Assembly (NCBI GenBank): GCA_014871385.1
Contig: CM026432.1
Span: 2,754,150-2,818,149, forward strand
Length of the DNA: 64,000 nt
Direction of reading: 5' to 3'
Source: Ceratodon purpureus
Taxonomy: Eukaryota > Streptophyta > Bryopsida > Pseudoditrichales > Ditrichaceae
Shown here one piece after another: positions 1 through 33,296 of the stretch. Each line of letters opens with the position of its first letter. The first letter of the stretch is position 1. Position numbers and translations under genes: made by a program. The notes beneath the pieces are model-generated. The model had not been told where the DNA came from, made no database searches, and was given only the letters and a program-made list of their open reading frames with translations.

Positions 1-832
1 TGCTGTAGGGATCTATCCATATACGAACTTACAGGCTCCGCACCAGATGTTTCCAACTTGTCATGGTTGTCCACACTGTGAGTGCTCATCACATCTCTTA
101 TCACTGTACTCATCCTTCCTTGAACGAACTTTCAATTTACTGGTTAACTAAAGTTATGGTCAGTGATGGGTAGGGTAAGAATTAGGTCATAGACTAGAAT
201 CTTGCAGACTTGGGATAAACTCAATTATGTATCTACAACCAATACCAGGCTCTCTGCCAGGACTGGTTGTGACCCTTGACCCCTACGTCATTCCCCGAGC
301 ATGAAGAACTTTAGATGGTTAAATTCACTCCTCAGCTAATCATTGTTTCCAAGTCTGCAAACTGCTCACAAAGGCTAACTCTTTGTTGTAGGGGTTTATC
401 ACGGAACCAAAATTTCTAAGTTATCAGAGTTGCAGTATCTGTGAGTATCATCATATTCATATTGGTCCTCACTGATGAGTAGTTTTACTAATCTAAGACT
501 CAGTTGACTCACTCTGATTTGATGAGTTATTTATCTAACAGAGTGATCACTGGCCTGTGCTTCCTTCCATAGACGTGACCATCTTTTCCTATGCACCATA
601 TTCTCTCTCTTGAAACTCTTGGCAGATTTAGACTTGTCGGACTACCTCCCGGAGAATTTCTATCTTAAAAGACTGTGATATTGTAATGATTTACATGAGC
701 CTTGCCACAGGGATCTGTCTAGCAACACATACACACCTGGTCAAGCACCATCTTGATCGATATGTGAAGTTCCTCTTGTTACCGAAGCTCTCTACCTTTT
801 GTGCCTAATTATTAACTAATTTAAAGGGAGAG

Positions 833-1195
833 TGTGTTGGTGTGCGGGTTTTGGAGGCCTTTGCCGTCTCAGTGTGCGCGTAGGGGTTGTGCTATAATAC
901 TAATAGGTTTCAATAGTAGTGGAGCTGACGCATCTGATATAATTCGTGTTGCTAGGCTTAAGTACGAGAAATGGTGTCCTGGTTGGGGAGGTCTGTTTGG
1001 AGCTTCCTTTGTGCTTACAGATTGAGTAAAGATGTGCAAACAATTTTGGCTTTGGAGTTTTGAGACTCTTGATACTTTGTTGGTTGCAATTACGGCTTCA
1101 TCTGGAGTTGATCGTCTTTATACAGTAATCTAGGTTTGATCGTCTTTGAGCAGAGCTACTCTTTCTGGATTTGTTTATGAACTCCAAGAGGATGT
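833..1195 (+). mobile_element. Possible worn Copia-type LTR remnant in the unit
   Basis: A purine run (AAAGGGAGAG, 823-832) is followed directly by TGTGTTGG, the usual look of a polypurine tract and LTR start. About 360 bp on, near 1198, is a sequence partly like a tRNA-Met primer site. The stretch before the purine run has weak likeness to the end of a Copia pol region. It is clearly broken and old. The unit holds only one such segment, so LTR ends cannot be proved by comparison. Equivalent positions are about 8002-8364, 21879-22241 and 29049-29411. Treat as a fossil. Confidence 0.25.
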
Positions 1196-2018
1196 GTGGT
1201 ATGAACACTGTTTCTGTTTACGTAGAAAAGCTTGGTTTTTTGTTGATTGTGAGCGTAATATGGAATCTCAAGTTTTAACATTGAAGAGGGTGGAATAAGT
1301 TATTTAAATGAGATTATACCCAGCTTCTGATTGAGCTAAAAAATGAGATCTATATTGTGCTGAATTTTAGAGCTTTGGGTTGGTTGAGATGATATGGTGG
1401 TGGGAGAGCGCTTTGGACGATGATCTTTAGATGATGGTGACATTGGTTGTGTTGAGGGTGGGGTTGCAGGTGGATCTCTTGACGCAGGTAGTTCGAATCT
1501 CGAGTGCATGAATTCACAGAACGTGTTCTCTTTTATGCGTTGTTATCTGCAGTCACTGATGTGCAGACTTGAACTTATGTGGTGGAGAGAGTCCTCTATT
1601 TGAGTTTAGAAATCTAGAATATTGAACAAGCAACAGTGAAGTATTCTCAATCGGTGCTTTACGTTTGTAGAATAATTTCAAATTAATAAAACGCTGGTGA
1701 ATGTTCCTCTCAATGAAACGATCTAGATTTTCCAATGTATGTCTAGAGTTTTCAATTTCTATTACAAACGTTCTGTAGTATTCTATTACAATTTGATGGT
1801 GAGCACGTCTAAATAAAACAAAAAGTAGAGTGATTTAGGATATCTTGGGGATTGGAGAAAAGGTCGAAAAAAGGAACTTTTGACACCAGTCTAAAAAAAG
1901 GAACTTCTGACATCATGAAAGGTTACATGTTTTAGTGTGATCATATGAGTGAAGGCTTGGCTTTGTCCATTTCAAAAATTGGGTCAAGCATGACAGCAAC
2001 TTGAATCTGAAGAAATTA

Positions 2019-2419
2019 AGGTAGTAATACCATAAACCGATAGAATAAGGAGTTTTGAGCAATTTGAACTATCATTTTCTCAGGGAATTATTGCAAGTAC
2101 ATAGACAAATTGAAAACAGAATGATAGAAGTTGTTTTCATAAATTTCTGATGAAAATACAATTTCCTGGAAATATTTTAGCTGAACCCATTTTTTGTCTT
2201 GTAGACTTCATAAAGTCTGCTACTGGCATAGGCACAATTCCAAAAGCAGCTCTACCCAAAACCGATATAAGATCTCAAAGCTTGTGAGGTGCATCAACGC
2301 TTTTCAAGGCTGGTCAAGGTATGTACCAAAATCAAGGATCTTGATTCCTGTTGGTGCGGTATCAGCACAAGTCTAATGCACAGGTTGAAGGGAGGTCTCG
2401 GTTTATGGTATTACTACCT
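2019..2419 (+). mobile_element. 401-bp TIR element (MITE-like) in unit A
   Basis: The ends are perfect 22-bp inverted repeats beginning AGGTAGTAATACCAT, flanked on both sides by TA. This fits a non-autonomous element with a TA target-site duplication, as used by Tc1/mariner-type transposases (family knowledge). There is no open frame that could be a transposase. The interior is not palindromic. Superfamily assignment beyond the TA duplication is a guess. Confidence 0.75.
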
Positions 2420-3529
2420 TACTGCAATATTTAGGTGCCTACATGACCTACTTGTACTTACATAATGTAGTGCGTGCCACATTTTGGGCTGGGAAAAGGA
2501 CTATTTGAGAGAGATAAGTTACATACAAGCTTGTGAACTATCTGGACTGTTGTAGTGGGATGGACTGCTTGTCCCCAAATGGATTCATGGCTTGAATATC
2601 CCATGTGATGATATTAACTGGCAAGTGGATCATGTAAACTTCACTATTGCGGACATACTCTAGGTACTGCTTCTCGCTTTCAAGTTGTAGGGATCAAATC
2701 CAGGTTCTAAAAGTTATTTGTCAACAAAATGTTCAATATATTGATTTTTCTCTCTCAAAATCTGCTGTCATAAATTCCACAAAATAAATTAACCAAAAAA
2801 ATGCACAATTATGAAAATTTGCATGATTTTGTTCATCCATTTTCTTTTCTAACACATGCACTTGTACCTATTCTTTTTAAATCAAAATTCATAAATTCTG
2901 TTGCAAAGTGAAATGTGATTTTTCAAATGCTCTCTGAAAATTTATGAAATAGAATATTCATACGACACTTAGACCAAGATTCCAAGAGTTTGATTTTGAT
3001 TCAGGAAAAAAAGGAAAACAAAGGGGAAAAATATAGAAGAAGAAGAAGAAAAAAGATCGACAAAAGAAATGAAGAAGAAGAAAAAGAATTCCATCTTCAA
3101 AGAAAGTCACTCTAAACAAAGTGTATGTTTATCCCATCAAAATATAGATTGAGGGTGTAGAAGTACGAGTATCCTTGTTGGATTTCAAAATGACTTATAA
3201 GGTGGGCCTTCAACTATGAATAATTCCCATGAGCCTCGGTTGAGAAAGGAAAAACTATAAACTTTAAATTAGCACCAATAGTTGTCATATACTTGAAGGT
3301 GGCCGATGGGAATTTCGCACATTATGCATCTTACTCCACTGCCTACTTGCACGTACTTTTATAACCATGGTTATGGGTGCTCCATGAAGTGTGATTTCTT
3401 CATAGATATATTTTAGCGCAAAATTGATTGAAGAGTTAAAAGTAATATTCTTGCTTACGATTTTTACGTATTCGTCTTCATATCCATCACCCTTCCATCC
3501 ACCAACGTAGTGGGGCTCGCCGCACAAGA

Positions 3530-4140
3530 GGCTAGTTTTATAAAAAAAAATGAAATATGTTCATAACCAAATCACTACTCAAATTCAATAGTGACCCAAG
3601 TCAAAAAGTTCACCAATTTTGCAAGGGCAGCCTCCATTACTTACAAAGACAAGCTTCAAAGTTTTTAGTAATTATTGGGTTTTTCTATAAATTTTTTGTC
3701 AAAACTCAAGATTTTTGATTTTTTTGAAATTGTTTTTTTGAAAATCACAAATTCATAAAGGTACCTACTCACCGTTCACTTTTCCTTTATCTCACAAATT
3801 GTTTTTGTAATGCATGTTTTACTATTTTTGTCAATTTTATACCTTCTTATAGAAAACAATTTGCATGATGCTCTAAAAAGCGTTTTGAGTCCCTAAAATT
3901 TTGCATGATCATACCTTGCCTAGTTAACTACATGGAAAAAAATATGACCAAAATGTGTGAGGTAAGAAGCTTCAAGTCTCACTTTGCACCGTGGAAGTAA
4001 TGCCTCTCGAGCAATGCCCAAAAAAGCTTTTGCACACACATTGAATGTTACGATGTTGTGAAAGATAATAATTAAAACATTGGTTTTCAAACTAGACCAA
4101 GAAATAGGCTGAGATAAACATCTTACGGTTGAAAGTCTTT
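3530..4140 (+). repeat. Partial copy of the 0.93-kb dispersed repeat, unit A
   Basis: This part of the unit aligns with the middle and late parts of the complete elements at 44890-45817 and 58181-59109; all share phrases such as aaccaaatcac and gacaagcttcaa. Neither terminal inverted repeat is present. Equivalent partial copies lie near 10699-11310, 18934-19543 and 26104-26713. The array's outer breakpoint at 33296 falls within the same segment. Confidence 0.7.
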
Positions 4141-4880
4141 TTTGTTGTTATTGGTAGGGAACCAGAATGTGGTTGCGAAACTCAGTTGGGGGTGAATATC
4201 TTGAAATCCAAAATGAATTTGCTCTCGACTATACCTGTTCAGATTTCCGTTCTTCTCAGAGGCTCAGGATGCAACAATCAGATCTCCATTCAGAGTCATT
4301 GTAGACGGTCCAAATTGATAAGAATACATCACTGTAGTAATATACGGAAACCAAAAGAAAGGCGGAATTGAAGAGAATACGGAGAGGAGAGTACAAAAGA
4401 TAAGGGTCTTGGTGGGATGAACTTTGCTCATGAAGAAAGCTTTAGTCCATGAGTGGTTGTTTCCGTTGACATTATAAATGTAGATGGAAGATTCTCTAGA
4501 AAGAGAAGTGATGAGTCATTGGAGTAAGGCTAAAGATGATTGGTGTAACGATACACATCCTTGTGGATCGGACCGGTATTAGAGTCATATTGTACATGTA
4601 GTGTATATAGAGTAAAAAATACAATAGATTTGAGGTGTTTTATTTACTGTTTTTGGTTTATGCCTAGATTCTAACTCTTCAATTGTTGTGGATTGCATCA
4701 CATTTGAGTCATGTCAATGAGGCCTAGTGTACAAAAAACATGCCTAAGCCTTAAACATCCTCTGAATCTTTTACTAATTTAGCACATGCATACATACACA
4801 TATACATAAAACGAGAGAAAACAGAGTTGTTGGTGGAAAAGAATTAAAAGGGTGAAGAGAATTAAAAAAATCACAAAAGT

Positions 4881-4990
4881 GGGTCGGAGGGAATCGAACC
4901 GGAGACGTCGGGGGTGGGGGGCAAAAGGCTGTGGGGGCGCGGCGCACGCGTCCCTCACAGCCCCTGGCCGGGTGTGCCTCACCCACGACC
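4881..4990 (-). ncRNA. tRNA-like CpG-rich segment with Pol III B-box, unit A
   Basis: On the minus strand a GC-rich patch ends with GGTTCGATTCC, a match to the Pol III B-box consensus, followed by CTCCGACCC. That 3' end can pair with GGTCG at the segment's 5' end like an acceptor stem. The spacing (about 110 bp) is too long for a plain tRNA and the A-box is poor. It is more likely a tRNA-derived SINE head or decayed tRNA than a working tRNA gene. It sits as a GC island in AT-rich DNA. Confidence 0.4.
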
Positions 4991-7900
4991 GATTATTGGA
5001 GGGCGATAAATGTATTTATATACAAAACTTGTGCGGTGGGGAGTGGAGTCCAGGCTATGCAAATTCAGTTGTAAGTATGGTATTGCGTGCCGTTATAACC
5101 ACCCAGAAATTCTTCTAAGTGGTAAAATTTGCTTTCTTTCAAAACTCTTGTGTATAGATGATTATTTTTATTTTTATTTAGATATAGATTTATAAACAGA
5201 CATTTCGTATTTCAATGAATTAAATATAATTTGAAATGATAGTATGCTTTAATGATAATTAATGTAAGCCTAATAAGAATTTATAATTTATTGATTTGGT
5301 TTGAATTATTTCAGTGTAAAATAAAGCCTATTATAAATATTAAGTTGATCTTAATATCAGATAAATTTAATTTATTTAATATTAATATATTTTTACAATT
5401 AATTTCAGATCATGTTTTTTTTATTTACAATTAGTTGTTACGATGAGGCAGGTTCTAGACTTTGTCTTTGTAAAAGTTACCAACATTGAATGTTTAAATA
5501 GGCACCATTCTTAACACAATTACAACCTACAACATGTAGTGGAATAATATAAATACATTTTTGGTAATCAGACTTTAGTAGACAATATTAACTTTGTTGC
5601 ATTCAAAATATAAAAGATCATATATCATTCGTATGAGTAATAAAATTTACAAATGATAACTTAAGCTTAAGCAATCTCTAGTGTTACTAGAGATTTTTAT
5701 ATGAACTGCTTTTTTTTCTCTTCATAAGTAGGTGATCAGATAATATTGAAAATGCACCCCCAATGAACTTAGTCTATAATTTATAAATATTAGATTTGAA
5801 TCTATATATTTTTGGGTCAAAAAAATTATAAATCTTTTAATAAATCATTATTAAATTACTACAAATTGAGATGAATTTTAAAGTTCTATTTTTTCATTGA
5901 TTCAGTAGGTGGAAGAAGCGGAGCAACTCTACAACCTCAACAAGGGGGTTTATCCACACAACAGAAGACTGGGTGAGGTTCTCGCCGGCTGATTTACATT
6001 CCAGCTTCTCAATCTCGGACTTCTGTGAGTAATGACTGATTCATGTCTTCGCCGAATCTTGTGCTCTTTGTTGTGGTTTCTTCAGATGGATATTAATTAA
6101 CTATCGCGATGGAGGTTACTTCAAAAGCTCGTGGTGTATATCGTCGTTGCTGCCATTTAGATCATAGCTGAGATTTTTCAGAATTCTTTTGATCTATGAT
6201 GAGCGAGGAAACGGCATGAACCCAGCGGTTAGGTTTCTAGGACTTTATAGGAAGAATTTATTTGCGCAATGCCAGCCTTGTCAGTGCCGAGCCTGCGCTG
6301 TGAATCCATTGATTCCGATTCATTCAGATCATTCGAGATCTGTTTTCTCTGTAGTCCGTGTCGTTGCGGATTAGCGCTCGAATGCTGTTAGATCTCTAGT
6401 GATTCGGCTTCATTCGAAGTGTTTACAACACATGTGTTGCTATTGAAAATGAGACATGTCGCTTGTGGGGAACGGACCCAGTGTCTTACGATTCTTTCCT
6501 TTTTGGCTATGATTCTCTGCGGAAGATCTTTCTTTGTGGCAAACCGATGTTCGCTTGTTCTGAACGCATAATTACAAATGTAATGTGGGTAAAGATTCTT
6601 ATCTGCACAAATCAACTGAGTTCCCTCCTGAAAGTTTAGTTCCCAGAATTGTGAGAAATGATTACCACGTTAGGATGGCAATTACTTATCAGTTCAGCGG
6701 TTCTGAGCTCATTTCATCAGTTGAACCCAGTGTTGTTTTTGCTGAAGTTTTTGACGACTAATACCAGATAGGCTTTTTATTTATTTTGGGCTTTATTTCA
6801 TGAGGATTTTGTTGATGCTGATTGTTATTCTTATTGATTCTACTGGGGCGTATTATGGTTTGTGCAAGTGTTCTGTTCCAACGAAAACCAATATAACGAC
6901 CTTGCCACAATCTTTTTTAATACTCAGGTATATTATTCCCATACACAAACTCTTCGTGCCTCGTAAGCTTGAAAATGGAATTTGACGGTTGCTCGCCTCT
7001 TAGGAGGAGTTACTGTATCTTTCCGTCATATGACAATTATTAAATCATCTGAAACGGAATCAATTGCTTTGAACATCTCATTTTTAAAATTTCTAAGCAT
7101 GAGTTTAATGATAATTGAGCTGTAGTGACATGTTTGGGCTGATTAGTGTCTCCAAGTGAACAATTGTCTTGCTGTAGGGATCTATCCATATACGAACTTA
7201 CAGGCTCCGCACCAGATGTTTCCAACTTGTCACGGTTGTCCACACTGTGAGTGCTCATCACATCTCTTATCCTTGTACTCATCCTTCCTTGAACGAACTT
7301 TCAATTTACTGGTTAACTAAAGTTATGGTCAGTGATGGGTAGGGTAAGAATTAGGTCATAGACTAGAATCTTGCAGACTTGGGATAAACTCAATTATGTA
7401 TCTACAACCAATACCAGGCTCTCTGCCAGGACTGGTTAAGACCCTTGACCCCTACGTCATTCCCCGAGCATGAAGAACTTTAGATGGTTAAATTCACTCC
7501 TCAGCTAATCATTGTTTCCAAGTCTGCAAACTGCTCACAAAGGCTAACTCTTTGTTGTAGGGGTTTATCACGGAACCAAAATTTCTAAGTTATCAGAGTT
7601 GCAGTATCTGTGAGTATCATCATATTCATATTGGTCCTCACTGATGAGTAGTTTTACTAATCTAAGACTCAGTTGACTCACTCTGATTTGATGAGTTATT
7701 TATCTAACAGAGTGATCACTGGCCTGTGCTTCCTTCCATAGACGTGACCATCTTTTCCTATGCACCATATTCTCTCTCTTGAAACTCTTGGCAGATTTAG
7801 ACTTGTCGGACTACCTCCCGGAGAATTTCTATCTTAAAAGACTGTGATATTGTAATGATTTACATGAGCCTTGCCACAGGGATCTGTCTAGCAACACATA

Positions 7901-9187
7901 CACACCTGGTCAAGCACCATCTTGATCGATATGTGAAGTTCCTCTTCTTACCAAAGCTCTCTACCTTTTGTGCCTAATTATTAACTAATTTAAAGGGAGA
8001 GTGTGTTGGTGTGCGGGTTTTGGAGGCCTTTGCCGTCTCAGTGTGCGCGTAGGGGTTGTGCTATAATACTAATAGGTTTCAATAGTAGTGGAGCTGACGC
8101 ATCTGATATAATTCGTGTTGCTAGGCTTAAGTACGAGAAATGGTGTCCTGGTTGGGGAGGTCTGTTTGGAGCTTCCTTTGTGCTTACAGATTGAGTAAGG
8201 ATGTGCAAACAATTTTGGCTTTGGAGTTTTGAGACTCTTGATACTTTGTTGGTTGCAATTACGGCTTCATCTGGAGTTGATCGTCTTTATACAGTAATCT
8301 AGGTTTGATCGTCTTTGAGCAGAGCTACTCTTTCTGGATTTGTTTATGAACTCCAAGAGGATGTGTGGTATGAACACTGTTTCTGTTTACGTAGAAAAGC
8401 TTGGTTTTTTGTTGATTGTGAGCGTAATATGGAATCTCAAGTTTTAACATTGAAGAGGGTGGAATAAGTTATTTAAATGAGATTATACCCAGCTTCTGAT
8501 TGAGCTAAAAAATGAGATCTATATTGTGCTGAATTTTAGAGCTTTGGGTTGGTTGAGATGATATGGTGGTGGGAGAGCGCTTTGGACGATGATCTTTAGA
8601 TGATGGTGACATTGGTTGTGTTGAGGGTGGGGTTGCAGGTGGATCTCTTGACGCAGGTAGTTCGAATCTCGAGTGCATGAATTCACAGAACGTGTTCTCT
8701 TTTATGCGTTGTTATCTGCAGTCACTGATGTGCAGACTTGAACTTATGTGGTGGAGAGAGTCCTCTATTTGAGTTTAGAAATCTAGAATATTGAACAAGC
8801 AACAGTGAAGTATTCTCAATCGGTGCTTTACGTTTGTAGAATAATTTCAAATTAATAAAACGCTGGTGAATGTTCCTCTCAATGAAACGATCTAGATTTT
8901 CCAATGTATGTCTAGAGTTTTCAATTTCTATTACAAACGTTCTGCAGTATTCTATTACAATTTGATGGTGAGCACGTCTAAATAAAACAAAAAGTAGAGT
9001 GATTTAGGATATCTTGGGGATTGGAGAAAAGGTCGAAAAAAGGAACTTTTGACACCAGTCTAAAAAAAGGAACTTCTGACATCATGAAAGGTTACATGTT
9101 TTAGTGTGATCATATGAGTGAAGGCTTGGCTTTGTCCATTTCAAAAATTGGGTCAAGCATGACAGCAACTTGAATCTGAAGAAATTA

Positions 9188-9588
9188 AGGTAGTAATACC
9201 ATAAACCGATAGAATAAGGAGTTTTGAGCAATTTGAACTATCATTTTCTCAGGGAATTATTGCAAGTACATAGACAAATTGAAAACAGAATGATAGAAGT
9301 TGTTTTCATAAATTTCTGATGAAAATACAATTTCCTGGAAATATTTTAGCTGAACCCATTTTTTGTCTTGTAGACTTCATAAAGTCTGCTACTGGCATAG
9401 GCACAATTCCAAAAGCAGCTCTACCCAAAACCGATATAAGATCTCAAAGCTTGTGAGGTGCATCAACGCTTTTCAAGGCTGGTCAAGGTATGTACCAAAA
9501 TCAAGGATCTTGATTCCTGTTGGTGCGGTATCAGCACAAGTCTAATGCACAGGTTGAAGGGAGGTCTCGGTTTATGGTATTACTACCT
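9188..9588 (+). mobile_element. 401-bp TIR element in unit B
   Basis: Same element at the same unit position, with intact inverted ends and TA flanks. It multiplied with the unit, not by separate insertion. Confidence 0.75.
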
Positions 9589-12050
9589 TACTGCAATATT
9601 TAGGTGCCTACATGACCTACTTGTACTTACATAATGTAGTGCGTGCCACATTTTGGGCTGGGAAAAGGACTATTTGAGAGAGATAAGTTACATACAAGCT
9701 TGTGAACTATCTGGACTGTTGTAGTGGGATGGACTGCTTGTCCCCAAATGGATTCATGGCTTGAATATCCCATGTGATGATATTAACTGGCAAGTGGATC
9801 ATGTAAACTTCACTATTGCGGACATACTCTAGGTACTGCTTCTCGCTTTCAAGTTGTAGGGATCAAATCCAGGTTCTAAAAGTTATTTGTCAACAAAATG
9901 TTCAATATATTGATTTTTCTCTCTCAAAATCTGCTGTCATAAATTCCACAAAATAAATTAACCAAAAAAATGCACAATTATGAAAATTTGCATGATTTTG
10001 TTCATCCATTTTCTTTTCTAACACATGCACTTGTACCTATTCTTTTTAAATCAAAATTCATAAATTCTGTTGCAAAGTGAAATGTGATTTTTCAAATGCT
10101 CTCTGAAAATTTATGAAATAGAATATTCATACGACACTTAGACCAAGATTCCAAGAGTTTGATTTTGATTCAGGAAAAAAAGGAAAACAAAGGGGAAAAA
10201 TATAGAAGAAGAAGAAGAAAAAAGATCGACAAAAGAAATGAAGAAGAAGAAAAAGAATTCCATCTTCAAAGAAAGTCACTCTAAACAAAGTGTATGTTTA
10301 TCCCATCAAAATATAGATTGAGGGTGTAGAAGTACGAGTATCCTTGTTGGATTTCAAAATGACTTATAAGGTGGGCCTTCAACTATGAATAATTCCCATG
10401 AGCCTCGGTTGAGAAAGGAAAAACTATAAACTTTAAATTAGCACCAATAGTTGTCATATACTTGAAGGTGGCCGATGGGAATTTCGCACATTATGCATCT
10501 TACTCCACTGCCTACTTGCACGTACTTTTATAACCATGGTTATGGGTGCTCCATGAAGTGTGATTTCTTCATAGATATATTTTAGCGCAAAATTGATTGA
10601 AGAGTTAAAAGTAATATTCTTGCTTACGATTTTTACGTATTCGTCTTCATATCCATCACCCTTCCATCCACCAACGTAGTGGGGCTCGCCGCACAAGAGG
10701 CTAGTTTTATAAAAAAAAATGAAATATGTTCATAACCAAATCACTACTCAAATTCAATAGTGACCCAAGTCAAAAAGTTCACCAATTTTGCAAGGGCAGC
10801 CTCCATTACTTACAAAGACAAGCTTCAAAGTTTTTAGTAATTATTGGGTTTTTCTATAAAATTTTTGTCAAAACTCAAGATTTTTGATTTTTTTTGAAAT
10901 TGTTTTTTTGAAAATCACAAATTCATAAAGGTACCTACTCACCGTTCACTTTTCCTTTATCTCACAAATTGTTTTTGTAATGCATGTTTTACTATTTTTG
11001 TCAATTTTATACCTTCTTATAGAAAACAATTTGCATGATGCTCTAAAAAGCGTTTTGAGTCCCTAAAATTTTGCATGATCATACCTTGCCTAGTTAACTA
11101 CATGGAAAAAAATATGACCAAAATGTGTGAGGTAAGAAGCTTCAAGTCTCACTTTGCACCGTGGAAGTAATGCCTCTCGAGCAATGCCCAAAAAAGCTTT
11201 TGCACACACATTGAATGTTACGATGTTGTGAAAGATAATAATTAAAACATTGGTTTTCAAACTAGACCAAGAAATAGGCTGAGATAAACATCTTACGGTT
11301 GAAAGTCTTTTTTGTTGTTATTGGTAGGGAACCAGAATGTGGTTGCGAAACTCAGTTGGGGGTGAATATCTTGAAATCCAAAATGAATTTGCTCTCGACT
11401 ATACCTGTTCAGATTTCCGTTCTTCTCAGAGGCTCAGGATGCAACAATCAGATCTCCATTCAGAGTCATTGTAGACGGTCCAAATTGATAAGAATACATC
11501 ACTGTAGTAATATACGGAAACCAAAAGAAAGGCGGAATTGAAGAGAATACGGAGAGGAGAGTACAAAAGATAAGGGTCTTGGTGGGATGAACTTTGCTCA
11601 TGAAGAAAGCTTTAGTCCATGAGTGGTTGTTTCCGTTGACATTATAAATGTAGATGGAAGATTCTCTAGAAAGAGAAGTGATGAGTCATTGGAGTAAGGC
11701 TAAAGATGATTGGTGTAACGATACACATCCTTGTGGATCGGACCGGTATTAGAGTCATATTGTACATGTAGTGTATATAGAGTAAAAAATACAATAGATT
11801 TGAGGTGTTTTATTTACTGTTTTTGGTTTATGCCTAGATTCTAACTCTTCAATTGTTGTGGATTGCATCACATTTGAGTCATGTCAATGAGGCCTAGTGT
11901 ACAAAAAACATGCCTAAGCCTTAAACATCCTCTGAATCTTTTACTAATTTAGCACATGCATACATACACATATACATAAAACGAGAGAAAACAGAGTTGT
12001 TGGTGGAAAAGAATTAAAAGGGTGAAGAGAATTAAAAAAATCACAAAAGT

Positions 12051-12160
12051 GGGTCGGAGGGAATCGAACCGGAGACGTCGGGGGTGGGGGGCAAAAGGCT
12101 GTGTGGGCGCGGCGCACGCGTCCCTCACAGCCCCTGGCCGGGTGTGCCTCACCCACGACC
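12051..12160 (-). ncRNA. tRNA-like segment, unit B
   Basis: Same segment with a one-base change in the GC-rich middle near 12104 that is shared with unit C. The B-box is unchanged. Confidence 0.4.
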
Positions 12161-13671
12161 GATTATTGGAGGGCGATAAATGTATTTATATACAAAACTT
12201 GTGCGGTGGGGAGTGGAGTCCAGGCTATGCAAATTCAGTTGTAAGTATGGTATTGCGTGCCGTTATAACCACCCAGAAATTCTTCTAAGTGGTAAAATTT
12301 GCTTTCTTTCAAAACTCTTGTGTATAGATGATTATTTTTATTTTTATTTAGATATAGATTTATAAACAGACATTTCGTATTTCAATGAATTAAATATAAT
12401 TTGAAATGATAGTATGCTTTAATGATAATTAATGTAAGCCTAATAAGAATTTATAATTTATTGATTTGGTTTGAATTATTTCAGTGTAAAATAAAGCCTA
12501 TTATAAATATTAAGTTGATCTTAATATTAGATAAATTTAATTTATTTAATATTAATATATTTTTACAATTAATTTCAGATCATGTTTTTTTTATTTACAA
12601 TTAGTTGTTACGATGAGGCAGGTTCTAGACTTTGTCTTTGTAAAAGTTACCAACATTGAATGTTTAAATAGGCACCATTCTTAACACAATTACAACCTAC
12701 AACATGTAGTGGAATAATATAAATACATTTTTGGTAATCAGACTTTAGTAGACAATATTAACTTTGTTGCATTCAAAATATAAAAGATCATATATCATTC
12801 GTATGAGTAATAAAATTTACAAATGATAACTTAAGCTTAAGCAATCTCTAGTGTTACTAGAGATTTTTATATGAACTGCTTTTTTTTCTCTTCATAAGTA
12901 GGTGATCAGATAATATTGAAAATGCACCCCCAATGAACTTAGTCTATAATTTATAAATATTAGATTTGAATCTATATATTTTTGGGTCAAAAAAATTATA
13001 AATCTTTTAATAAATCATTATTAAATTACTACAAATTGAGATGAATTTTAAAGTTCTATTTTTTCATTGATTCAGTAGGTGGAAGAAGCGGAGCAACTCT
13101 ACAACCTCAACAAGGGGGTTTATCCACACAACAGAAGACTGGGTGAGGTTCTCGCCGGCTGATTTACATTCCAGCTTCTCAATCTCGGACTTCTGTGAGT
13201 AATGACTGATTCATGTCTTCGCCGAATCTTGTGCTCTTTGTTGTGGTTTCTTCAGATGGATATTAATTAACTATCGCGATGGAGGTTACTTCAAAAGCTC
13301 GTGGTGTATATCGTCGTTGCTGCCATTTAGATCATAGCTGAGATTTTTCAGAATTCTTTTGATCTATGATGAGCGAGGAAACGGCATGAACCCAGCGGTT
13401 AGGTTTCTAGGACTTTATAGGAAGAATTTATTTGCGCAATGCCAGCCTTGTCAGTGCCGAGCCTGCGCTGTGAATCCATTGATTCCGATTCATTCAGATC
13501 ATTCAAGATCTGTTTTCTCTATAGTCCGTGTCGTTGCATTTAGCGCTCGAATGCTGTTAGATCTCTAGTGATTCGGCTTCATTCGTAGTGCTTACAACAC
13601 ATGTGTTGCTATTGAAAATGAGACATGTCGCTTGTGGAGAACGGACCCAGTGTCTTACGATTCGGATTTTT

Positions 13672-14251: not shown

Positions 14252-14258
14252 TATAAAA
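14252..14258 (+). promoter_or_regulatory. TATA box of the SINA-like gene
   Basis: TATAAAA, 44 bp before the ATG at 14302, with CCAAT about 17 bp upstream. Transcription should start near 14280-14290, giving a short 5' leader. Confidence 0.6.
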
Positions 14259-21055: not shown

Positions 21056-24000
21056 TAATTTCTTCAGATTCAAGTTGCTGTCATGCTTGACCCAATTTTT
21101 GAAATGGACAAAGCCAAGCCTTCACTCATATGATCACACTAAAACATGTAACCTTTCATGATGTCAGAAGTTCCTTTTTTTAGACTGGTGTCAAAAGTTC
21201 CTTTTTTCGACCTTTTCTCCAATCCCCAAGATATCCTAAATCACTCTACTTTTTGTTTTATTTAGACGTGCTCACCATCAAATTGTAATAGAATACTGCA
21301 GAACGTTTGTAATAGAAATTGAAAACTCTAGACATACATTGGAAAATCTAGATCGTTTCATTGAGAGGAACATTCACCAGCGTTTTATTAATTTGAAATT
21401 ATTCTACAAACGTAAAGCACCGATTGAGAATACTTCACTGTTGCTTGTTCAATATTCTAGATTTCTAAACTCAAATAGAGGACTCTCTCCACCACATAAG
21501 TTCAAGTCTGCACATCAGTGACTGCAGATAACAACGCATAAAAGAGAACACGTTCTGTGAATTCATGCACTCGAGATTCGAACTACCTGCGTCAAGAGAT
21601 CCACCTGCAACCCCACCCTCAACACAACCAATGTCACCATCATCTAAAGATCATCGTCCAAAGCGCTCTCCCACCACCATATCATCTCAACCAACCCAAA
21701 GCTCTAAAATTCAGCACAATATAGATCTCATTTTTTAGCTCAATCAGAAGCTGGGTATAATCTCATTTAAATAACTTATTCCACCCTCTTCAATGTTAAA
21801 ACTTGAGATTCCATATTACGCTCACAATCAACAAAAAACCAAGCTTTTCTACGTAAACAGAAACAGTGTTCATACCACACATCCTCTTGGAGTTCATAAA
21901 CAAATCCAGAAAGAGTAGCTCTGCTCAAAGACGATCAAACCTAGATTACTGTATAAAGACGATCAACTCCAGATGAAGCCGTAATTGCAACCAACAAAGT
22001 ATCAAGAGTCTCAAAACTCCAAAGCCAAAATTGTTTGCACATCCTTACTCAATCTGTAAGCACAAAGGAAGCTCCAAACAGACCTCCCCAACCAGGACAC
22101 CATTTCTCGTACTTAAGCCTAGCAACACGAATTATATCAGATGCGTCAGCTCCACTACTATTGAAACCTATTAGTATTATAGCACAACCCCTACGCGCAC
22201 ACTGAGACGGCAAAGGCCTCCAAAACCCGCACACCAACACACTCTCCCTTTAAATTAGTTAATAATTAGGCACAAAAGGTAGAGAGCTTTGGTAAGAAGA
22301 GGAACTTCACATATCGATCAAGATGGTGCTTGACCAGGTGTGTATGTGTTGCTAGACAGATCCCTGTGGCAAGGCTCATGTAAATCATTACAATATCACA
22401 GTCTTTTAAGATAGAAATTCTCCGGGAGGTAGTCCGACAAGTCTAAATCTGCCAAGAGTTTCAAGAGAGAGAATATGGTGCATAGGAAAAGATGGTCACG
22501 TCTATGGAAGGAAGCACAGGCCAGTGATCACTCTGTTAGATAAATAACTCATCAAATCAGAGTGAGTCAACTGAGTCTTAGATTAGTAAAACTACTCATC
22601 AGTGAGGACCAATATGAATATGATGATACTCACAGATACTGCAACTCTGATAACTTAGAAATTTTGGTTCCGTGATAAACCCCTACAACAAAGAGTTAGC
22701 CTTTGTGAGCAGTTTGCAGACTTGGAAACAATGATTAGCTGAGGAGTGAATTTAACCATCTAAAGTTCTTCATGCTCGGGGAATGACGTAGGGGTCAAGG
22801 GTCTTAACCAGTCCTGGCAGAGAGCCTGGTATTGGTTGTAGATACATAATTGAGTTTATCCCAAGTCTGCAAGATTCTAGTCTATGACCTAATTCTTACC
22901 CTACCCATCACTGACCATAACTTTAGTTAACCAGTAAATTGAAAGTTCGTTCAAGGAAGGATGAGTACAAGGATAAGAGATGTGATGAGCACTCACAGTG
23001 TGGACAACCGTGACAAGTTGGAAACATCTGGTGCGGAGCCTGTAAGTTCGTATATGGATAGATCCCTACAGCAAGACAATTGTTCACTTGGAGACACTAA
23101 TCAGCCCAAACATGTCACTACAGCTCAATTATCATTAAACTCATGCTTAGAAATTTTAAAAATGAGATGTTCAAAGCAATTGATTCCGTTTCAGATGATT
23201 TAATAATTGTCATATGACGGAAAGATACAGTAACTCCTCCTAAGAGGCGAGCAACCGTCAAATTCCATTTTCAAGCTTACGAGGCACGAAGAGTTTGTGT
23301 ATGGGAATAATATACCTGAGTATTAAAAAAGATTGTGGCAAGGTCGTTATATTGGTTTTCGTTGGAACAGAACACTTGCACAAACCATAATACGCCCCAG
23401 TAGAATCAATAAGAATAACAATCAGCATCAACAAAATCCTCATGAAATAAAGCCCAAAATAAATAAAAAGCCTATCTGGTATTAGTCGTCAAAAACTTCA
23501 GCAAAAACAACACTGGGTTCAACTGATGAAATGAGCTCAGAACCGCTGAACTGATAAGTAATTGCCATCCTAACGTGGTAATCATTTCTCACAATTCTGG
23601 GAACTAAACTTTCAGGAGGGAACTCAGTTGATTTGTGCAGATAAGAATCTTTACCCACATTACATTTGTAATTATGCGTTCAGAACAAGCGAACATCGGT
23701 TTGCCACAAAGAAAGATCTTCCGCAGAGAATCATAGCCAAAAAGGAAAGAATCGTAAGACACTGGGTCCGTTCCCCACAAGCGACATGTCTCATTTTCAA
23801 TAGCAACACATGTGTTGTAAACACTTCGAATGAAGCCGAATCACTAGAGATCTAACAGCATTCGAGCGCTAATCCGCAACGACACGGACTACAGAGAAAA
23901 CAGATCTCGAATGATCTGAATGAATCGGAATCAATGGATTCACAGCGCAGGCTCGGCACTGACAAGGCTGGCATTGCGCAAATAAATTCTTCCTATAAAG

Positions 24001-25252
24001 TCCTAGAAACCTAACCGCTGGGTTCATGCCGTTTCCTCGCTCATCATAGATCAAAAGAATTCTGAAAAATCTCAGCTATGATCTAAATGGCAGCAACGAC
24101 GATATACACCACGAGCTTTTGAAGTAACCTCCATCGCGATAGTTAATTAATATCCATCTGAAGAAACCACAACAAAGAGCACAAGATTCGGCGAAGACAT
24201 GAATCAGTCATTACTCACAGAAGTCCGAGATTGAGAAGCTGGAATGTAAATCAGCCGGCGAGAACCTCACCCAGTCTTCTGTTGTGTGGATAAACCCCCT
24301 TGTTGAGGTTGTAGAGTTGCTCCGCTTCTTCCACCTACTGAATCAATGAAAAAATAGAACTTTAAAATTCATCTCAATTTGTAGTAATTTAATAATGATT
24401 TATTAAAAGATTTATAATTTTTTTGACCCAAAAATATATAGATTCAAATCTAATATTTATAAATTATAGACTAAGTTCATTGGGGGTGCATTTTCAATAT
24501 TATCTGATCACCTACTTATGAAGAGAAAAAAAAGCAGTTCATATAAAAATCTCTAGTAACACTAGAGATTGCTTAAGCTTAAGTTATCATTTGTAAATTT
24601 TATTACTCATACGAATGATATATGATCTTTTATATTTTGAATGCAACAAAGTTAATATTGTCTACTAAAGTCTGATTACCAAAAATGTATTTATATTATT
24701 CCACTACATGTTGTAGGTTGTAATTGTGTTAAGAATGGTGCCTATTTAAACATTCAATGTTGGTAACTTTTACAAAGACAAAGTCTAGAACCTGCCTCAT
24801 CGTAACAACTAATTGTAAATAAAAAAAACATGATCTGAAATTAATTGTAAAAATATATTAATATTAAATAAATTAAATTTATCTGATATTAAGATCAACT
24901 TAATATTTATAATAGGCTTTATTTTACACTGAAATAATTCAAACCAAATCAATAAATTATAAATTCTTATTAGGCTTACATTAATTATCATTAAAGCATA
25001 CTATCATTTCAAATTATATTTAATTCATTGAAATACGAAATGTCTGTTTATAAATCTATATCTAAATAAAAATAAAAATAATCATCTATACACAAGAGTT
25101 TTGAAAGAAAGCAAATTTTACCACTTAGAAGAATTTCTGGGTGGTTATAACGGCACGCAATACCATACTTACAACTGAATTTGCATAGCCTGGACTCCAC
25201 TCCCCACCGCACAAGTTTTGTATATAAATACATTTATCGCCCTCCAATAATC

Positions 25253-25362
25253 GGTCGTGGGTGAGGCACACCCGGCCAGGGGCTGTGAGGGACGCGTGCG
25301 CCGCGCCCCCACAGCCTTTTGCCCCCCACCCCCGACGTCTCCGGTTCGATTCCCTCCGACCC
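25253..25362 (+). ncRNA. tRNA-like segment, unit D
   Basis: Mirror of the unit A segment, with the A-type base in the GC-rich middle and an unchanged B-box. Confidence 0.4.
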
Positions 25363-27824
25363 ACTTTTGTGATTTTTTTAATTCTCTTCACCCTTTTAAT
25401 TCTTTTCCACCAACAACTCTGTTTTCTCTCGTTTTATGTATATGTGTATGTATGCATGTGCTAAATTAGTAAAAGATTCAGAGGATGTTTAAGGCTTAGG
25501 CATGTTTTTTGTACACTAGGCCTCATTGACATGACTCAAATGTGATGCAATCCACAACAATTGAAGAGTTAGAATCTAGGCATAAACCAAAAACAGTAAA
25601 TAAAACACCTCAAATCTATTGTATTTTTTACTCTATATACACTACATGTACAATATGACTCTAATACCGGTCCGATCCACAAGGATGTGTATCGTTACAC
25701 CAATCATCTTTAGCCTTACTCCAATGACTCATCACTTCTCTTTCTAGAGAATCTTCCATCTACATTTATAATGTCAACGGAAACAACCACTCATGGACTA
25801 AAGCTTTCTTCATGAGCAAAGTTCATCCCACCAAGACCCTTATCTTTTGTACTCTCCTCTCCGTATTCTCTTCAATTCCGCCTTTCTTTTGGTTTCCGTA
25901 TATTACTACAGTGATGTATTCTTATCAATTTGGACCGTCTACAATGACTCTGAATGGAGATCTGATTGTTGCATCCTGAGCCTCTGAGAAGAACGGAAAT
26001 CTGAACAGGTATAGTCGAGAGCAAATTCATTTTGGATTTCAAGATATTCACCCCCAACTGAGTTTCGCAACCACATTCTGGTTCCCTACCAATAACAACA
26101 AAAAAGACTTTCAACCGTAAGATGTTTATCTCAGCCTATTTCTTGGTCTAGTTTGAAAACCAATGTTTTAATTATTATCTTTCACAACATCGTAACATTC
26201 AATGTGTGTGCAAAAGCTTTTTTGGGCATTGCTCGAGAGGCATTACTTCCACGGTGCAAAGTGAGACTTGAAGCTTCTTACCTCACACATTTTGGTCATA
26301 TTTTTTTCCATGTAGTTAACTAGGCAAGGTATGATCATGCAAAATTTTAGGGACTCAAAACGCTTTTTAGAGCATCATGCAAATTGTTTTCTATAAGAAG
26401 GTATAAAATTGACAAAAATAGTAAAACATGCATTACAAAAACAATTTGTGAGATAAAGGAAAAGTGAACGGTGAGTAGGTACCTTTATGAATTTGTGATT
26501 TTCAAAAAAACAATTTCAAAAAAAATCAAAAATCTTGAGTTTTGACAAAAAATTTATAGAAAAACCCAATAATTACTAAAAGCTTTGAAGCTTGTCTTTG
26601 TAAGTAATGGAGGCTGCCCTTGCAAAATTGGTGAACTTTTTGACTTGGGTCACTATTGAATTTGAGTAGTGATTTGGTTATGAACATATTTCATTTTTTT
26701 TTATAAAACTAGCCTCTTGTGCGGCGAGCCCCACTACGTTGGTGGATGGAAGGGTGATGGATATGAAGACGAATACGTAAAAATCGTAAGCAAGAATATT
26801 ACTTTTAACTCTTCAATCAATTTTGCGCTAAAATATATCTATGAAGAAATCACACTTCATGGAGCACCCATAACCATGGTTATAAAAGTACGTGCAAGTA
26901 GGCAGTGGAGTAAGATGCATAATGTGCGAAATTCCCATCGGCCACCTTCAAGTATATGACAACTATTGGTGCTAATTTAAAGTTTATAGTTTTTCCTTTC
27001 TCAACCGAGGCTCATGGGAATTATTCATAGTTGAAGGCCCACCTTATAAGTCATTTTGAAATCCAACAAGGATACTCGTACTTCTACACCCTCAATCTAT
27101 ATTTTGATGGGATAAACATACACTTTGTTTAGAGTGACTTTCTTTGAAGATGGAATTCTTTTTCTTCTTCTTCATTTCTTTTGTCGATCTTTTTTCTTCT
27201 TCTTCTTCTATATTTTTCCCCTTTGTTTTCCTTTTTTTCCTGAATCAAAATCAAACTCTTGGAATCTTGGTCTAAGTGTCGTATGAATATTCTATTTCAT
27301 AAATTTTCAGAGAGCATTTGAAAAATCACATTTCACTTTGCAACAGAATTTATGAATTTTGATTTAAAAAGAATAGGTACAAGTGCATGTGTTAGAAAAG
27401 AAAATGGATGAACAAAATCATGCAAATTTTCATAATTGTGCATTTTTTTGGTTAATTTATTTTGTGGAATTTATGACAGCAGATTTTGAGAGAGAAAAAT
27501 CAATATATTGAACATTTTGTTGACAAATAACTTTTAGAACCTGGATTTGATCCCTACAACTTGAAAGCGAGAAGCAGTACCTAGAGTATGTCCGCAATAG
27601 TGAAGTTTACATGATCCACTTGCCAGTTAATATCATCACATGGGATATTCAAGCCATGAATCCATTTGGGGACAAGCAGTCCATCCCACTACAACAGTCC
27701 AGATAGTTCACAAGCTTGTATGTAACTTATCTCTCTCAAATAGTCCTTTTCCCAGCCCAAAATGTAGCACGCACTACATTATGTAAGTACAAGTAGGTCA
27801 TGTAGGCACCTAAATATTGCAGTA

Positions 27825-28225
27825 AGGTAGTAATACCATAAACCGAGACCTCCCTTCAACCTGTGCATTAGACTTGTGCTGATACCGCACCAACAGGAAT
27901 CAAGATCCTTGATTTTGGTACATACCTTGACCAGCCTTGAAAAGCGTTGATGCACCTCACAAGCTTTGAGATCTTATATCGGTTTTGGGTAGAGCTGCTT
28001 TTGGAATTGTGCCTATGCCAGTAGCAGACTTTATGAAGTCTACAAGACAAAAAATGGGTTCAGCTAAAATATTTCCAGGAAATTGTATTTTCATCAGAAA
28101 TTTATGAAAACAACTTCTATCATTCTGTTTTCAATTTGTCTATGTACTTGCAATAATTCCCTGAGAAAATGATAGTTCAAATTGCTCAAAACTCCTTATT
28201 CTATCGGTTTATGGTATTACTACCT
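27825..28225 (-). mobile_element. 401-bp TIR element in unit D
   Basis: Mirror copy of the element in unit A; both inverted ends and the TA flanks are present. Unit E is truncated before this position and lacks it. Confidence 0.75.
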
Positions 28226-30243
28226 TAATTTCTTCAGATTCAAGTTGCTGTCATGCTTGACCCAATTTTTGAAATGGACAAAGCCAAGCCTTCACTCATA
28301 TGATCACACTAAAACATGTAACCTTTCATGATGTCAGAAGTTCCTTTTTTTAGACTGGTGTCAAAAGTTCCTTTTTTCGACCTTTTCTCCAATCCCCAAG
28401 ATATCCTAAATCACTCTACTTTTTGTTTTATTTAGACGTGCTCACCATCAAATTGTAATAGAATACTGCAGAACGTTTGTAATAGAAATTGAAAACTCTA
28501 GACATACATTGGAAAATCTAGATCGTTTCATTGAGAGGAACATTCACCAGCGTTTTATTAATTTGAAATTATTCTACAAACGTAAAGCACCGATTGAGAA
28601 TACTTCACTGTTGCTTGTTCAATATTCTAGATTTCTAAACTCAAATAGAGGACTCTCTCCACCACATAAGTTCAAGTCTGCACATCAGTGACTGCAGATA
28701 ACAACGCATAAAAGAGAACACGTTCTGTGAATTCATGCACTCGAGATTCGAACTACCTGCGTCAAGAGATCCACCTGCAACCCCACCCTCAACACAACCA
28801 ATGTCACCATCATCTAAAGATCATCGTCCAAAGCGCTCTCCCACCACCATATCATCTCAACCAACCCAAAGCTCTAAAATTCAGCACAATATAGATCTCA
28901 TTTTTTAGCTCAATCAGAAGCTGGGTATAATCTCATTTAAATAACTTATTCCACCCTCTTCAATGTTAAAACTTGAGATTCCATATTACGCTCACAATCA
29001 ACAAAAAACCAAGCTTTTCTACGTAAACAGAAACAGTGTTCATACCACACATCCTCTTGGAGTTCATAAACAAATCCAGAAAGAGTAGCTCTGCTCAAAG
29101 ACGATCAAACCTAGATTACTGTATAAAGACGATCAACTCCAGATGAAGCCGTAATTGCAACCAACAAAGTATCAAGAGTCTCAAAACTCCAAAGCCAAAA
29201 TTGTTTGCACATCCTTACTCAATCTGTAAGCACAAAGGAAGCTCCAAACAGACCTCCCCAACCAGGACACCATTTCTCGTACTTAAGCCTAGCAACACGA
29301 ATTATATCAGATGCGTCAGCTCCACTACTATTGAAACCTATTAGTATTATAGCACAACCCCTACGCGCACACTGAGACGGCAAAGGCCTCCAAAACCCGC
29401 ACACCAACACACTCTCCCTTTAAATTAGTTAATAATTAGGCACAAAAGGTAGAGAGCTTTGGTAAGAAGAGGAACTTCACATATCGATCAAGATGGTGCT
29501 TGACCAGGTGTGTATGTGTTGCTAGACAGATCCCTGTGGCAAGGCTCATGTAAATCATTACAATATCACAGTCTTTTAAGATAGAAATTCTCCGGGAGGT
29601 AGTCCGACAAGTCTAAATCTGCCAAGAGTTTCAAGAGAGAGAATATGGTGCATAGGAAAAGATGGTCACGTCTATGGAAGGAAGCACAGGCCAGTGATCA
29701 CTCTGTTAGATAAATAACTCATCAAATCAGAGTGAGTCAACTGAGTCTTAGATTAGTAAAACTACTCATCAGTGAGGACCAATATGAATATGATGATACT
29801 CACAGATACTGCAACTCTGATAACTTAGAAATTTTGGTTCCGTGATAAACCCCTACAACAAAGAGTTAGCCTTTGTGAGCAGTTTGCAGACTTGGAAACA
29901 ATGATTAGCTGAGGAGTGAATTTAACCATCTAAAGTTCTTCATGCTCGGGGAATGACGTAGGGGTCAAGGGTCTTAACCAGTCCTGGCAGAGAGCCTGGT
30001 ATTGGTTGTAGATACATAATTGAGTTTATCCCAAGTCTGCAAGATTCTAGTCTATGACCTAATTCTTACCCTACCCATCACTGACCATAACTTTAGTTAA
30101 CCAGTAAATTGAAAGTTCGTTCAAGGAAGGATGAGTACAAGGATAAGAGATGTGATGAGCACTCACAGTGTGGACAACCGTGACAAGTTGGAAACATCTG
30201 GTGCGGAGCCTGTAAGTTCGTATATGGATAGATCCCTACAGCA

Positions 30244-33200
30244 AGACAATTGTTCACTTGGAGACACTAATCAGCCCAAACATGTCACTACAGCTCAATT
30301 ATCATTAAACTCATGCTTAGAAATTTTAAAAATGAGATGTTCAAAGCAATTGATTCCGTTTCAGATGATTTAATAATTGTCATATGACGGAAAGATACAG
30401 TAACTCCTCCTAAGAGGCGAGCAACCGTCAAATTCCATTTTCAAGCTTACGAGGCACGAAGAGTTTGTGTATGGGAATAATATACCTGAGTATTAAAAAA
30501 GATTGTGGCAAGGTCGTTATATTGGTTTTCGTTGGAACAGAACACTTGCACAAACCATAATACGCCCCAGTAGAATCAATAAGAATAACAATCAGCATCA
30601 ACAAAATCCTCATGAAATAAAGCCCAAAATAAATAAAAAGCCTATCTGGTATTAGTCGTCAAAAACTTCAGCAAAAACAACACTGGGTTCAACTGATGAA
30701 ATGAGCTCAGAACCGCTGAACTGATAAGTAATTGCCATCCTAACGTGGTAATCATTTCTCACAATTCTGGGAACTAAACTTTCAGGAGGGAACTCAGTTG
30801 ATTTGTGCAGATAAGAATCTTTACCCACATTACATTTGTAATTATGCGTTCAGAACAAGCGAACATCGGTTTGCCACAAAGAAAGATCTTCCGCAGAGAA
30901 TCATAGCCAAAAAGGAAAGAATCGTAAGACACTGGGTCCGTTCCCCACAAGCGACATGTCTCATTTTCAATAGCAACACATGTGTTGTAAACACTTCGAA
31001 TGAAGCCGAATCACTAGAGATCTAACAGCATTCGAGCGCTAATCCGCAACGACACGGACTACAGAGAAAACAGATCTCGAATGATCTGAATGAATCGGAA
31101 TCAATGGATTCACAGCGCAGGCTCGGCACTGACAAGGCTGGCATTGCGCAAATAAATTCTTCCTATAAAGTCCTAGAAACCTAACCGCTGGGTTCATGCC
31201 GTTTCCTCGCTCATCATAGATCAAAAGAATTCTGAAAAATCTCAGCTATGATCTAAATGGCAGCAACGACGATATACACCACGAGCTTTTGAAGTAACCT
31301 CCATCGCGATAGTTAATTAATATCCATCTGAAGAAACCACAACAAAGAGCACAAGATTCGGCGAAGACATGAATCAGTCATTACTCACAGAAGTCCGAGA
31401 TTGAGAAGCTGGAATGTAAATCAGCCGGCGAGAACCTCACCCAGTCTTCTGTTGTGTGGATAAACCCCCTTGTTGAGGTTGTAGAGTTGCTCCGCTTCTT
31501 CCACCTACTGAATCAATGAAAAAATAGAACTTTAAAATTCATCTCAATTTGTAGTAATTTAATAATGATTTATTAAAAGATTTATAATTTTTTTGACCCA
31601 AAAATATATAGATTCAAATCTAATATTTATAAATTATAGACTAAGTTCATTGGGGGTGTATTTTCAATATTATCTGATCACCTACTTATGAAGAGAAAAA
31701 AAAGCAGTTCATATAAAAATCTCTAGTAACACTAGAGATTGCTTAAGCTTAAGTTATCATTTGTAAATTTTATTACTCATACGAATGATATATGATCTTT
31801 TATATTTTGAATGCAACAAAGTTAATATTGTCTACTAAAGTCTGATTACCAAAAATGTATTTATATTATTCCACTACATGTTGTAGGTTGTAATTGTGTT
31901 AAGAATGGTGCCTATTTAAACATTCAATGTTGGTAACTTTTACAAAGACAAAGTCTAGAACCTGCCTCATCGTAACAACTAATTGTAAATAAAAAAAACA
32001 TGATCTGAAATTAATTGTAAAAATATATTAATATTAAATAAATTAAATTTATCTGATATTAAGATCAACTTAATATTTATAATAGGCTTTATTTTACACT
32101 GAAATAATTCAAACCAAATCAATAAATTATAAATTCTTATTAGGCTTACATTAATTATCATTAAAGCATACTATCATTTCAAATTATATTTAATTCATTG
32201 AAATACGAAATGTCTGTTTATAAATCTATATCTAAATAAAAATAAAAATAATCATCTATACACAAGAGTTTTGAAAGAAAGCAAATTTTACCACTTAGAA
32301 GAATTTCTGGGTGGTTATAACGGCACGCAATACCATACTTACAACTGAATTTGCATAGCCTGGACTCCACTCCCCACCGCACAAGTTTTGTATATAAATA
32401 CATTTATCGCCCTCCAATAATCGGTCGTGGGTGAGGCACACCCGGCCAGGGGCTGTGAGGGACGCGTGCGCCGCGCCCCCACAGCCTTTTGCCCCCCACC
32501 CCCGACGTCTCCGGTTCGATTCCCTCCGACCCACTTTTGTGATTTTTTTAATTCTCTTCACCCTTTTAATTCTTTTCCACCAACAACTCTGTTTTCTCTC
32601 GTTTTATGTATATGTGTATGTATGCATGTGCTAAATTAGTAAAAGATTCAGAGGATGTTTAAGGCTTAGGCATGTTTTTTGTACACTAGGCCTCATTGAC
32701 ATGACTCAAATGTGATGCAATCCACAACAATTGAAGAGTTAGAATCTAGGCATAAACCAAAAACAGTAAATAAAACACCTCAAATCTATTGTATTTTTTA
32801 CTCTATATACACTACATGTACAATATGACTCTAATACCGGTCCGATCCACAAGGATGTGTATCGTTACACCAATCATCTTTAGCCTTACTCCAATGACTC
32901 ATCACTTCTCTTTCTAGAGAATCTTCCATCTACATTTATAATGTCAACGGAAACAACCACTCATGGACTAAAGCTTTCTTCATGAGCAAAGTTCATCCCA
33001 CCAAGACCCTTATCTTTTGTACTCTCCTCTCCGTATTCTCTTCAATTCCGCCTTTCTTTTGGTTTCCGTATATTACTACAGTGATGTATTCTTATCAATT
33101 TGGACCGTCTACAATGACTCTGAATGGAGATCTGATTGTTGCATCCTGAGCCTCTGAGAAGAACGGAAATCTGAACAGGTATAGTCGAGAGCAAATTCAT

Positions 33201-33296
33201 TTTGGATTTCAAGATATTCACCCCCAACTGAGTTTCGCAACCACATTCTGGTTCCCTACCAATAACAACAAAAAAGACTTTCAACCGTAAGATGTT
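30244..33296 (-). repeat. Macrosatellite unit E (truncated at outer edge)
   Basis: Covers unit positions 7169 down to 4117 and then stops inside the partial 0.93-kb-family repeat. It carries A/D-type variants and at least one private change near 31660. The base after 33296 no longer matches any other copy, so this is the array's outer breakpoint. Confidence 0.9.
32423..32532 (+). ncRNA. tRNA-like segment, unit E
   Basis: Fifth copy, A-type. It is the last complete sub-feature before the array's outer end. Confidence 0.4.

Follow-up and report, generated by a model that had tools for sequence, protein, structure and literature searches.

An inverted macrosatellite array around a predicted SINA-type E3 ligase gene in Ceratodon purpureus

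The stretch of DNA analysed here (the window) comprises 64,000 nucleotides from Ceratodon purpureus (GenBank assembly GCA_014871385.1, contig CM026432.1, positions 2,754,150 to 2,818,149 of the forward strand), and its first 33,296 positions are taken up by a palindrome: two inverted arms, each composed of head-to-tail copies of a unit of 7169-7170 bp, face one another across a loop that carries a single predicted gene, for an E3 ubiquitin ligase of the SINA type (Table 1). A self-BLAST of the window aligns the left arm with the reverse complement of the right over 13,672 columns, 15 of which differ in a direct listing; it also returns the tandem relationship within each arm, as direct matches of 99.68% identity on the left and of 99.86% on the right, the latter between 16580-26126 and 23749-33296. 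The right arm (16,725 bp) consists of the 8-bp tail, two whole units and 2378 bp of a third, i.e. 2.33 units, and stops inside a unit at 33296, where it adjoins sequence that has no other copy in self-searches of the window; on the left side, where the window edge cuts the arm, there are at least 1.9 units. The length and identity of the arm match exclude chance as its origin, and the inverted-array structure is a real feature of the given sequence: inverted arms of more than 99% identity about a spacer that is not duplicated within the window define a palindrome, and kilobase units arranged head to tail are a trait of macrosatellite (or megasatellite) arrays. An earlier interpretation made from the letters alone (the sequence-only reading) had proposed arms of more than 13.6 kb, 7.17-kb tandem units, a 2.9-kb loop and an end at 33296, and all of these dimensions are correct. 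Tandem Repeats Finder detected no short-period arrays in the arms (periods up to 500).

Two short motifs recur, by eye, at the edges of the right arm: TTCAACA lies at both (16564-16570 and 33295-33301), and AAYCGTAAGA just inside both (16581-16590 and 33283-33292). It is possible that they are the trace of a joining event. When the flanks of the right arm are joined, four frames of at least 60 codons cross the junction, none of which was recognised by eye.

Table 1. Features of the inverted array and its loop; positions are those of the window
Feature	Position	Strand	Basis or remark
Left palindrome arm, continues beyond the window	1..13671	+	99.89% to reverse complement of 30243-16572
Left outer unit LB, truncated by the window edge	1..6494	+	direct repeat with 7170-13663
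Left inner unit LA, 7169 bp, adjoins loop	6495..13663	+	self-alignment, unit alignment, variant columns
Dispersed-repeat fragment inside unit	10705..11224	+	also in the other three units covering this part (self-BLAST)
Diverged loop-side edge of unit A (last ~162 bp)	13502..13663	+	6 of 7 internal inner/outer diagnostic events
8-bp tail beyond unit, common to both arms, absent at tandem junctions	13664..13671	+	
Single-copy loop, 2900 bp	13672..16571	+	self-searches of window
TATA-like box TATAAAA, 44-50 bp upstream of start codon	14252..14258	+	by eye
SINA-type E3 gene model, exon 1, 49 codons	14302..14448	+	splice model, Pfam
Intron GT..AG, interrupting RING domain	14449..14899	+	splice model, Pfam
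SINA-type E3 gene model, exon 2 with stop	14900..15589	+	with exon 1, encodes 278 aa
Right palindrome arm, made up of the 8-bp tail and 2.33 units	16572..33296	-	
Right inner unit RA, mirror partner of LA	16580..23748	-	differs from LA in 3 of 7170 columns
Right outer unit RB, mirror partner of LB	23749..30918	-	differs from LB in 12 of 6503 columns
Right partial unit RC, 2378 bp, where the array stops within a unit; non-repeat sequence follows	30919..33296	-	

The loop is present once: self-comparison of the window gave no second match of at least 200 bp, a search of 33297-64000 found none at E 1e-4, and its only matches to the unit are three of 13-18 bp (E 0.74). It contains an open frame of 241 aa, a length equalled in none of 200 Markov shuffles of the loop. 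The frame with exon 2 alone scores 42.6 bits against the Pfam model Sina_ZnF and 26.6 bits against Sina_RING, the latter falling below the cut-off of 29.3; on the spliced product, both domains pass, with 39.1 bits for Sina_RING and 42.3 bits for Sina_ZnF (cut-off 32), and the RING thus reaches its cut-off only with the proposed intron removed. At E 0.001, exon 2 matches 11 PDB sequences, every one of them SIAH1/1A or SIAH2. The loop, therefore, holds one structurally complete two-exon gene model, whose predicted product has the RING and zinc finger that together characterize a SINA/SIAH-type RING E3 ligase; the Pfam and PDB matches thereby support the suggestion that a lone ubiquitin-ligase gene occupies the loop. 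It is probably an ordinary gene that was caught there. A search of viral contigs for relatives of the SINA protein gave three pattern matches, none of which was confirmed.

The arms, by contrast with their spacer, appear to be devoid of coding content. The longest stop-to-stop frame of the unit (102 aa) was reached or exceeded in 136 of 200 Markov shuffles, and is thus not beyond chance, and no Pfam domain exceeded its curated cut-off in the 26 of 42 open reading frames (ORFs) of at least 50 aa that the scan covered, a scan from which small exons could escape. An Rfam search of 6502-16600 returned nothing up to E = 1, and the unit thus shows no ribosomal DNA, 5S or other known RNA gene; a transfer RNA scan of the whole window was equally negative. 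These results support the sequence-only reading in its description of the arms as a non-coding macrosatellite. As duplicated arm genes, a trait of ampliconic palindromes on sex chromosomes, were looked for in this way and not found, membership of that class is not claimed.

The best Pfam match in the unit lies below threshold: a peptide encoded by 12180-12362 (+) resembles zf-CCCH (E 0.0017; 18.7 bits, cut-off 20.5), and three more CCCH models match it with E values of 0.0068, 0.11 and 0.13; this weak, partial zinc finger is possibly a captured exon fragment. Four other weak matches (E 0.036-0.13) were rejected as chance, each being to a single unrelated family and far below its cut-off. Unit LA also contains a perfect 24-bp inverted repeat (9186-9209 and 9567-9590, 357 bp apart), which could mark an element of ~405 bp resembling a miniature inverted-repeat transposable element.

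The only part of the unit that is matched elsewhere in the window is a dispersed repeat of ~0.5 kb, presumed to be a transposable element (TE), with relatives at 45107-45564 (74%) and 58407-58920 (84%). In full, the repeat is AT-rich and ~830 bp long, as seen in its copies at 44906-45732 and 58197-59029 (76.7% identical to each other); it carries ATCTTACGG near its end and, by eye, the outer border of the array at 33296 sits at the same motif. Caulimovirid genomes span a size range that includes ~7.2 kb, and for this reason the unit might be taken for the decayed remains of a virus or transposon, an endogenous caulimovirid for example, that inserted in tandem. We consider this extremely improbable: no reverse transcriptase, coat or other domain rose above its cut-off in the ORFs scanned (26 of 42), and all but ~0.5 kb of the unit is without a match elsewhere in the window. 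One 28-base pattern from the unit likewise found no match among viral contigs. Overall, the unit resembles ordinary non-coding DNA for most of its length, with an old fragment of a repeat, rather than a recognisable virus or transposon.

Around the dispersed-repeat fragment, CWG trinucleotides are depleted to 0.25 and 0.19 of expectation in the two bins covering 10095-11094, whereas most of the unit is not depleted. Across the window, low values were noted at 59001-60000 (0.09), 3001-4000 (0.16), 10001-11000 (0.28) and 19001-20000 (0.11). Depletion of CWG is a footprint of old CHG methylation of plant TEs, and we infer that the pattern seen here would fit such a history. Long inverted repeats can also feed the small-RNA pathways of plants, and the array might accordingly be supposed to yield a hairpin RNA, and small RNAs that silence either the array itself or the enclosed gene, with the CWG depletion as the expected mark of long CHG methylation. 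This, too, is very improbable. The depletion is confined to the dispersed-repeat fragment and its surroundings, and a hairpin transcript could form only by reading through the loop; moreover, a tblastn search of the unit with the SINA product found no convincing fragment (best E 0.83), and RNAs from the arms would therefore not target the gene by sequence.

The five copies of the unit were aligned, with LB covering column 668 onward and RC the last 2386 columns only; there are 30 variable columns, and identity falls no lower than 99.33% between any two copies. The tandem neighbours LA and LB differ in 26 of 6503 columns, five of which are tail columns beyond the unit. None of the 30 variable columns is arm-specific, in the sense that left units agree, right units agree and the arms differ. 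Instead, what separates the copies is their position relative to the loop: seven internal events and the 8-bp tail divide the units into inner and outer ones, with the same division on the left as on the right. One of the seven lies at column 5602, and the other six fall within the last 162 bp next to the loop; with 6495 bp compared, the remaining 6333 columns hold a single event, and a binomial test of this clustering gives P = 1.6e-9, although the cut was chosen after seeing the data. This concentration suggests that the body of the unit was homogenised, whereas its loop-side edge was not; the identical tail in both arms in turn suggests that a block was copied together with its edge.

These observations are best explained, with a probability of about 0.58, by a macrosatellite array, part of which was duplicated in reverse orientation on the other side of an adjacent gene. 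The simplest order of events would place the tandem array first and the inverted block copy second. A non-coding segment containing an old dispersed-repeat fragment would have been duplicated in tandem, and unequal exchange or conversion would have homogenised the units except at the loop-side edge, which stayed diverged. Break repair or template switching would next have placed an inverted copy of a block, at least 2.33 units long and including the 8-bp tail, beyond the gene; either arm could be the original. The few differences between the arms would have been gained since. The inner 11.9 kb of the arms show six of them, one being a single-base gap in a run of T; the remaining five substitutions in 11,895 bp amount to 0.042%. 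At the rate of 2.5e-9 per year quoted for Populus (PMC7023750), the arms would have diverged for roughly 84,000 years if neither conversion nor sequence error has intervened, a figure that, with its borrowed rate, indicates scale only.

The sequence-only reading had pointed to arm-to-arm conversion, which keeps the arms alike in known large palindromes. Applied here, the palindrome would be old, and its arms held together by continuing gene conversion, both from arm to arm and from unit to unit, as in the primate Y and the willow W. The diverged edge and homogenised body of unit A do imply exchange between units, and the uneven distribution of the arm differences resembles a mosaic with a more diverged copy. 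However, it is tandem units that have visibly been homogenised, possibly before the palindrome existed, and no tract can be named over which one arm was converted by the other. Recent duplication of a block accounts for the identity of the arms just as well, since the similarity of tandem neighbours is almost that of mirror partners. The shared edge variants and the mosaic character of LB are compatible with both conversion and recent copying, and we regard an old, conversion-maintained palindrome as a tentative alternative, and on balance a doubtful one.

Near-identical units of more than 7 kb are hard to assemble, and a tandem array might have been misjoined, for instance if two haplotypes, or copies that had collapsed, were set head to head with the gene between them. 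In a fold-back read, a sequence is followed by its own reverse complement, which gives identical arms with a spacer near zero, usually without a unique loop of 2.9 kb; here, the arms have 15 differences and the loop is 2900 bp long. Furthermore, private differences occur in the arms, and a third junction ends the right one, inside a unit and ahead of non-repeat sequence; several independent false joins would therefore be needed, which makes a trivial assembly artefact less likely. Artificial palindromes are documented in long reads, especially after whole-genome amplification (in the portions of PMC6218980 drawn on here), and some weight must be given to such an origin, but we judge it unlikely.

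Several points weigh against a simple inverted copy of an existing array. The left arm extends past the start of the window, and its outer end thus lies outside, by about 3.05 kb if the two arms end symmetrically. The differences between the arms are few, as the sequence-only reading had said, but they are not evenly scattered: nine of the 15, including two doublets, fall in 64-1776, and all nine are private to LB. A simple recent copy would spread its differences evenly, and some exchange with a copy outside the window is therefore likely; such a copy may have contributed to a mosaic in the outer part of LB. In-register conversion between the arms of an older palindrome would produce the same shared edge, so that the order of events is not unique. 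Finally, the right arm is bordered by a 7-bp direct repeat, which could be read as the sign of an insertion-type event but is weak evidence for one; runs of at least 7 bp are shared by 1.6% of 20,000 random pairs of places, and insertion of the right arm with a target-site duplication was accordingly rejected.

Whichever way it arose, the inverted array should recombine readily: unequal exchange would alter its copy number, and a crossover between the arms would flip the gene. It might be imagined that a self-homogenising macrosatellite isolates the E3-ligase gene in an invertible loop, with crossovers flipping the gene and conversion keeping the arms alike, and that orientation or silencing is polymorphic, possibly in linkage with sex or mating; we hold this extension to be improbable. 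The array behaves like other long inverted repeats and is without established function. If the assembly is right, the locus presents a compact and datable case of a palindrome arising from a tandem array, in which the variants record tandem growth preceding inverted copying. Its single-copy loop provides unique anchors on both sides for the study of conversion in non-coding palindromes, a case that stands apart from the gene-rich palindromes of sex chromosomes on which the conversion idea rests.

The remainder of the window contains several further features. There are two U5 spliceosomal RNA genes in opposite orientation, at 52740-52851 (-) and 55946-56057 (+), with Rfam scores of 69.1 and 90 bits, respectively; by BLAST, the pair is 86% identical over 129 bp. 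An intact-looking frame at 48997-49797 (-) encodes a chlorophyll a/b-binding domain (Pfam E 1.5e-10), and we take its product to be ELIP-like; nearby, a frame with a zf-RVT match (50504-51199; Pfam) presumably belongs to a plant long interspersed nuclear element. These two frames and the CWG pattern are indicative of a plant genome, and gene density might hint at a bryophyte or lycophyte. A frame of 182 aa at 56857-57405 (+) matches DUF7953 strongly (E 4.7e-52), and one of 452 aa at 53923-55281 (+), with acidic and basic stretches, has no Pfam match at E 0.01. At 42611-42991 (+), there are matches to RRM_3 and xRRM (E 1.4e-8 and 3.2e-5, respectively), and the overlapping upstream frame at 42349-42681 has none; the former is perhaps part of a La-type gene that is split by an intron.

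The sequence-only reading considered the architecture unusual, and this is only partly so, as inversions in human megasatellites and a palindrome of the willow W come close to it. Among the open-access titles listed, no report of a SINA-centred inverted macrosatellite was recognised, a weak negative in that the subscription literature mostly falls outside such a list; a search for RING-finger genes in Marchantia Y repeats likewise turned up no paper. The nearest plant counterpart is the palindrome W.P1 on the W chromosome of Salix purpurea (PMC7023750), with arms of 20,071 and 19,550 bp that are on average more than 99% alike and a spacer given as 2.6 kb in the text and 3586 bp in Table 2 of that report; arm and spacer sizes are thus nearly the same as here. 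As far as the sections of that report drawn on here describe it, W.P1 is female-specific, has five genes in its arms and shows evidence of conversion, whereas the Ceratodon locus has no detected arm genes, a gene in its spacer, and arms that are tandem arrays. The human Y palindrome P6, for which 104,230 bp of arm were compared (Table 1 of PMC3723533), shares the long, near-identical inverted arms around a unique spacer; its arms are much longer, it lies on a sex chromosome, and the portions of that study used here report conversion measured in populations, together with rare inversion between the arms. In their composition, the Ceratodon arms resemble the gene-less human megasatellites at 4p11 (6.0-kb units, 51.4 kb) and 5p15.1 (3.4-kb units, 71.0 kb) (PMC2588610), and arrays with internal inversions occur among the TE-containing human megasatellites in that survey: kilobase units in tandem, without genes (in Ceratodon, apparently) and with pieces of TE (here presumed), and switches of unit orientation are common to both. 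Unit identities of more than 96% and more than 97% are given for the human arrays, as against 99.33% for the least alike pair in Ceratodon, and a single gene in a unique spacer at the switch point is not described in the parts of that survey consulted (PMC2588610). Overall, we conclude that the locus is of a known kind, and that it combines features of these systems: a palindrome built from arrays, with the only detected gene in its spacer.

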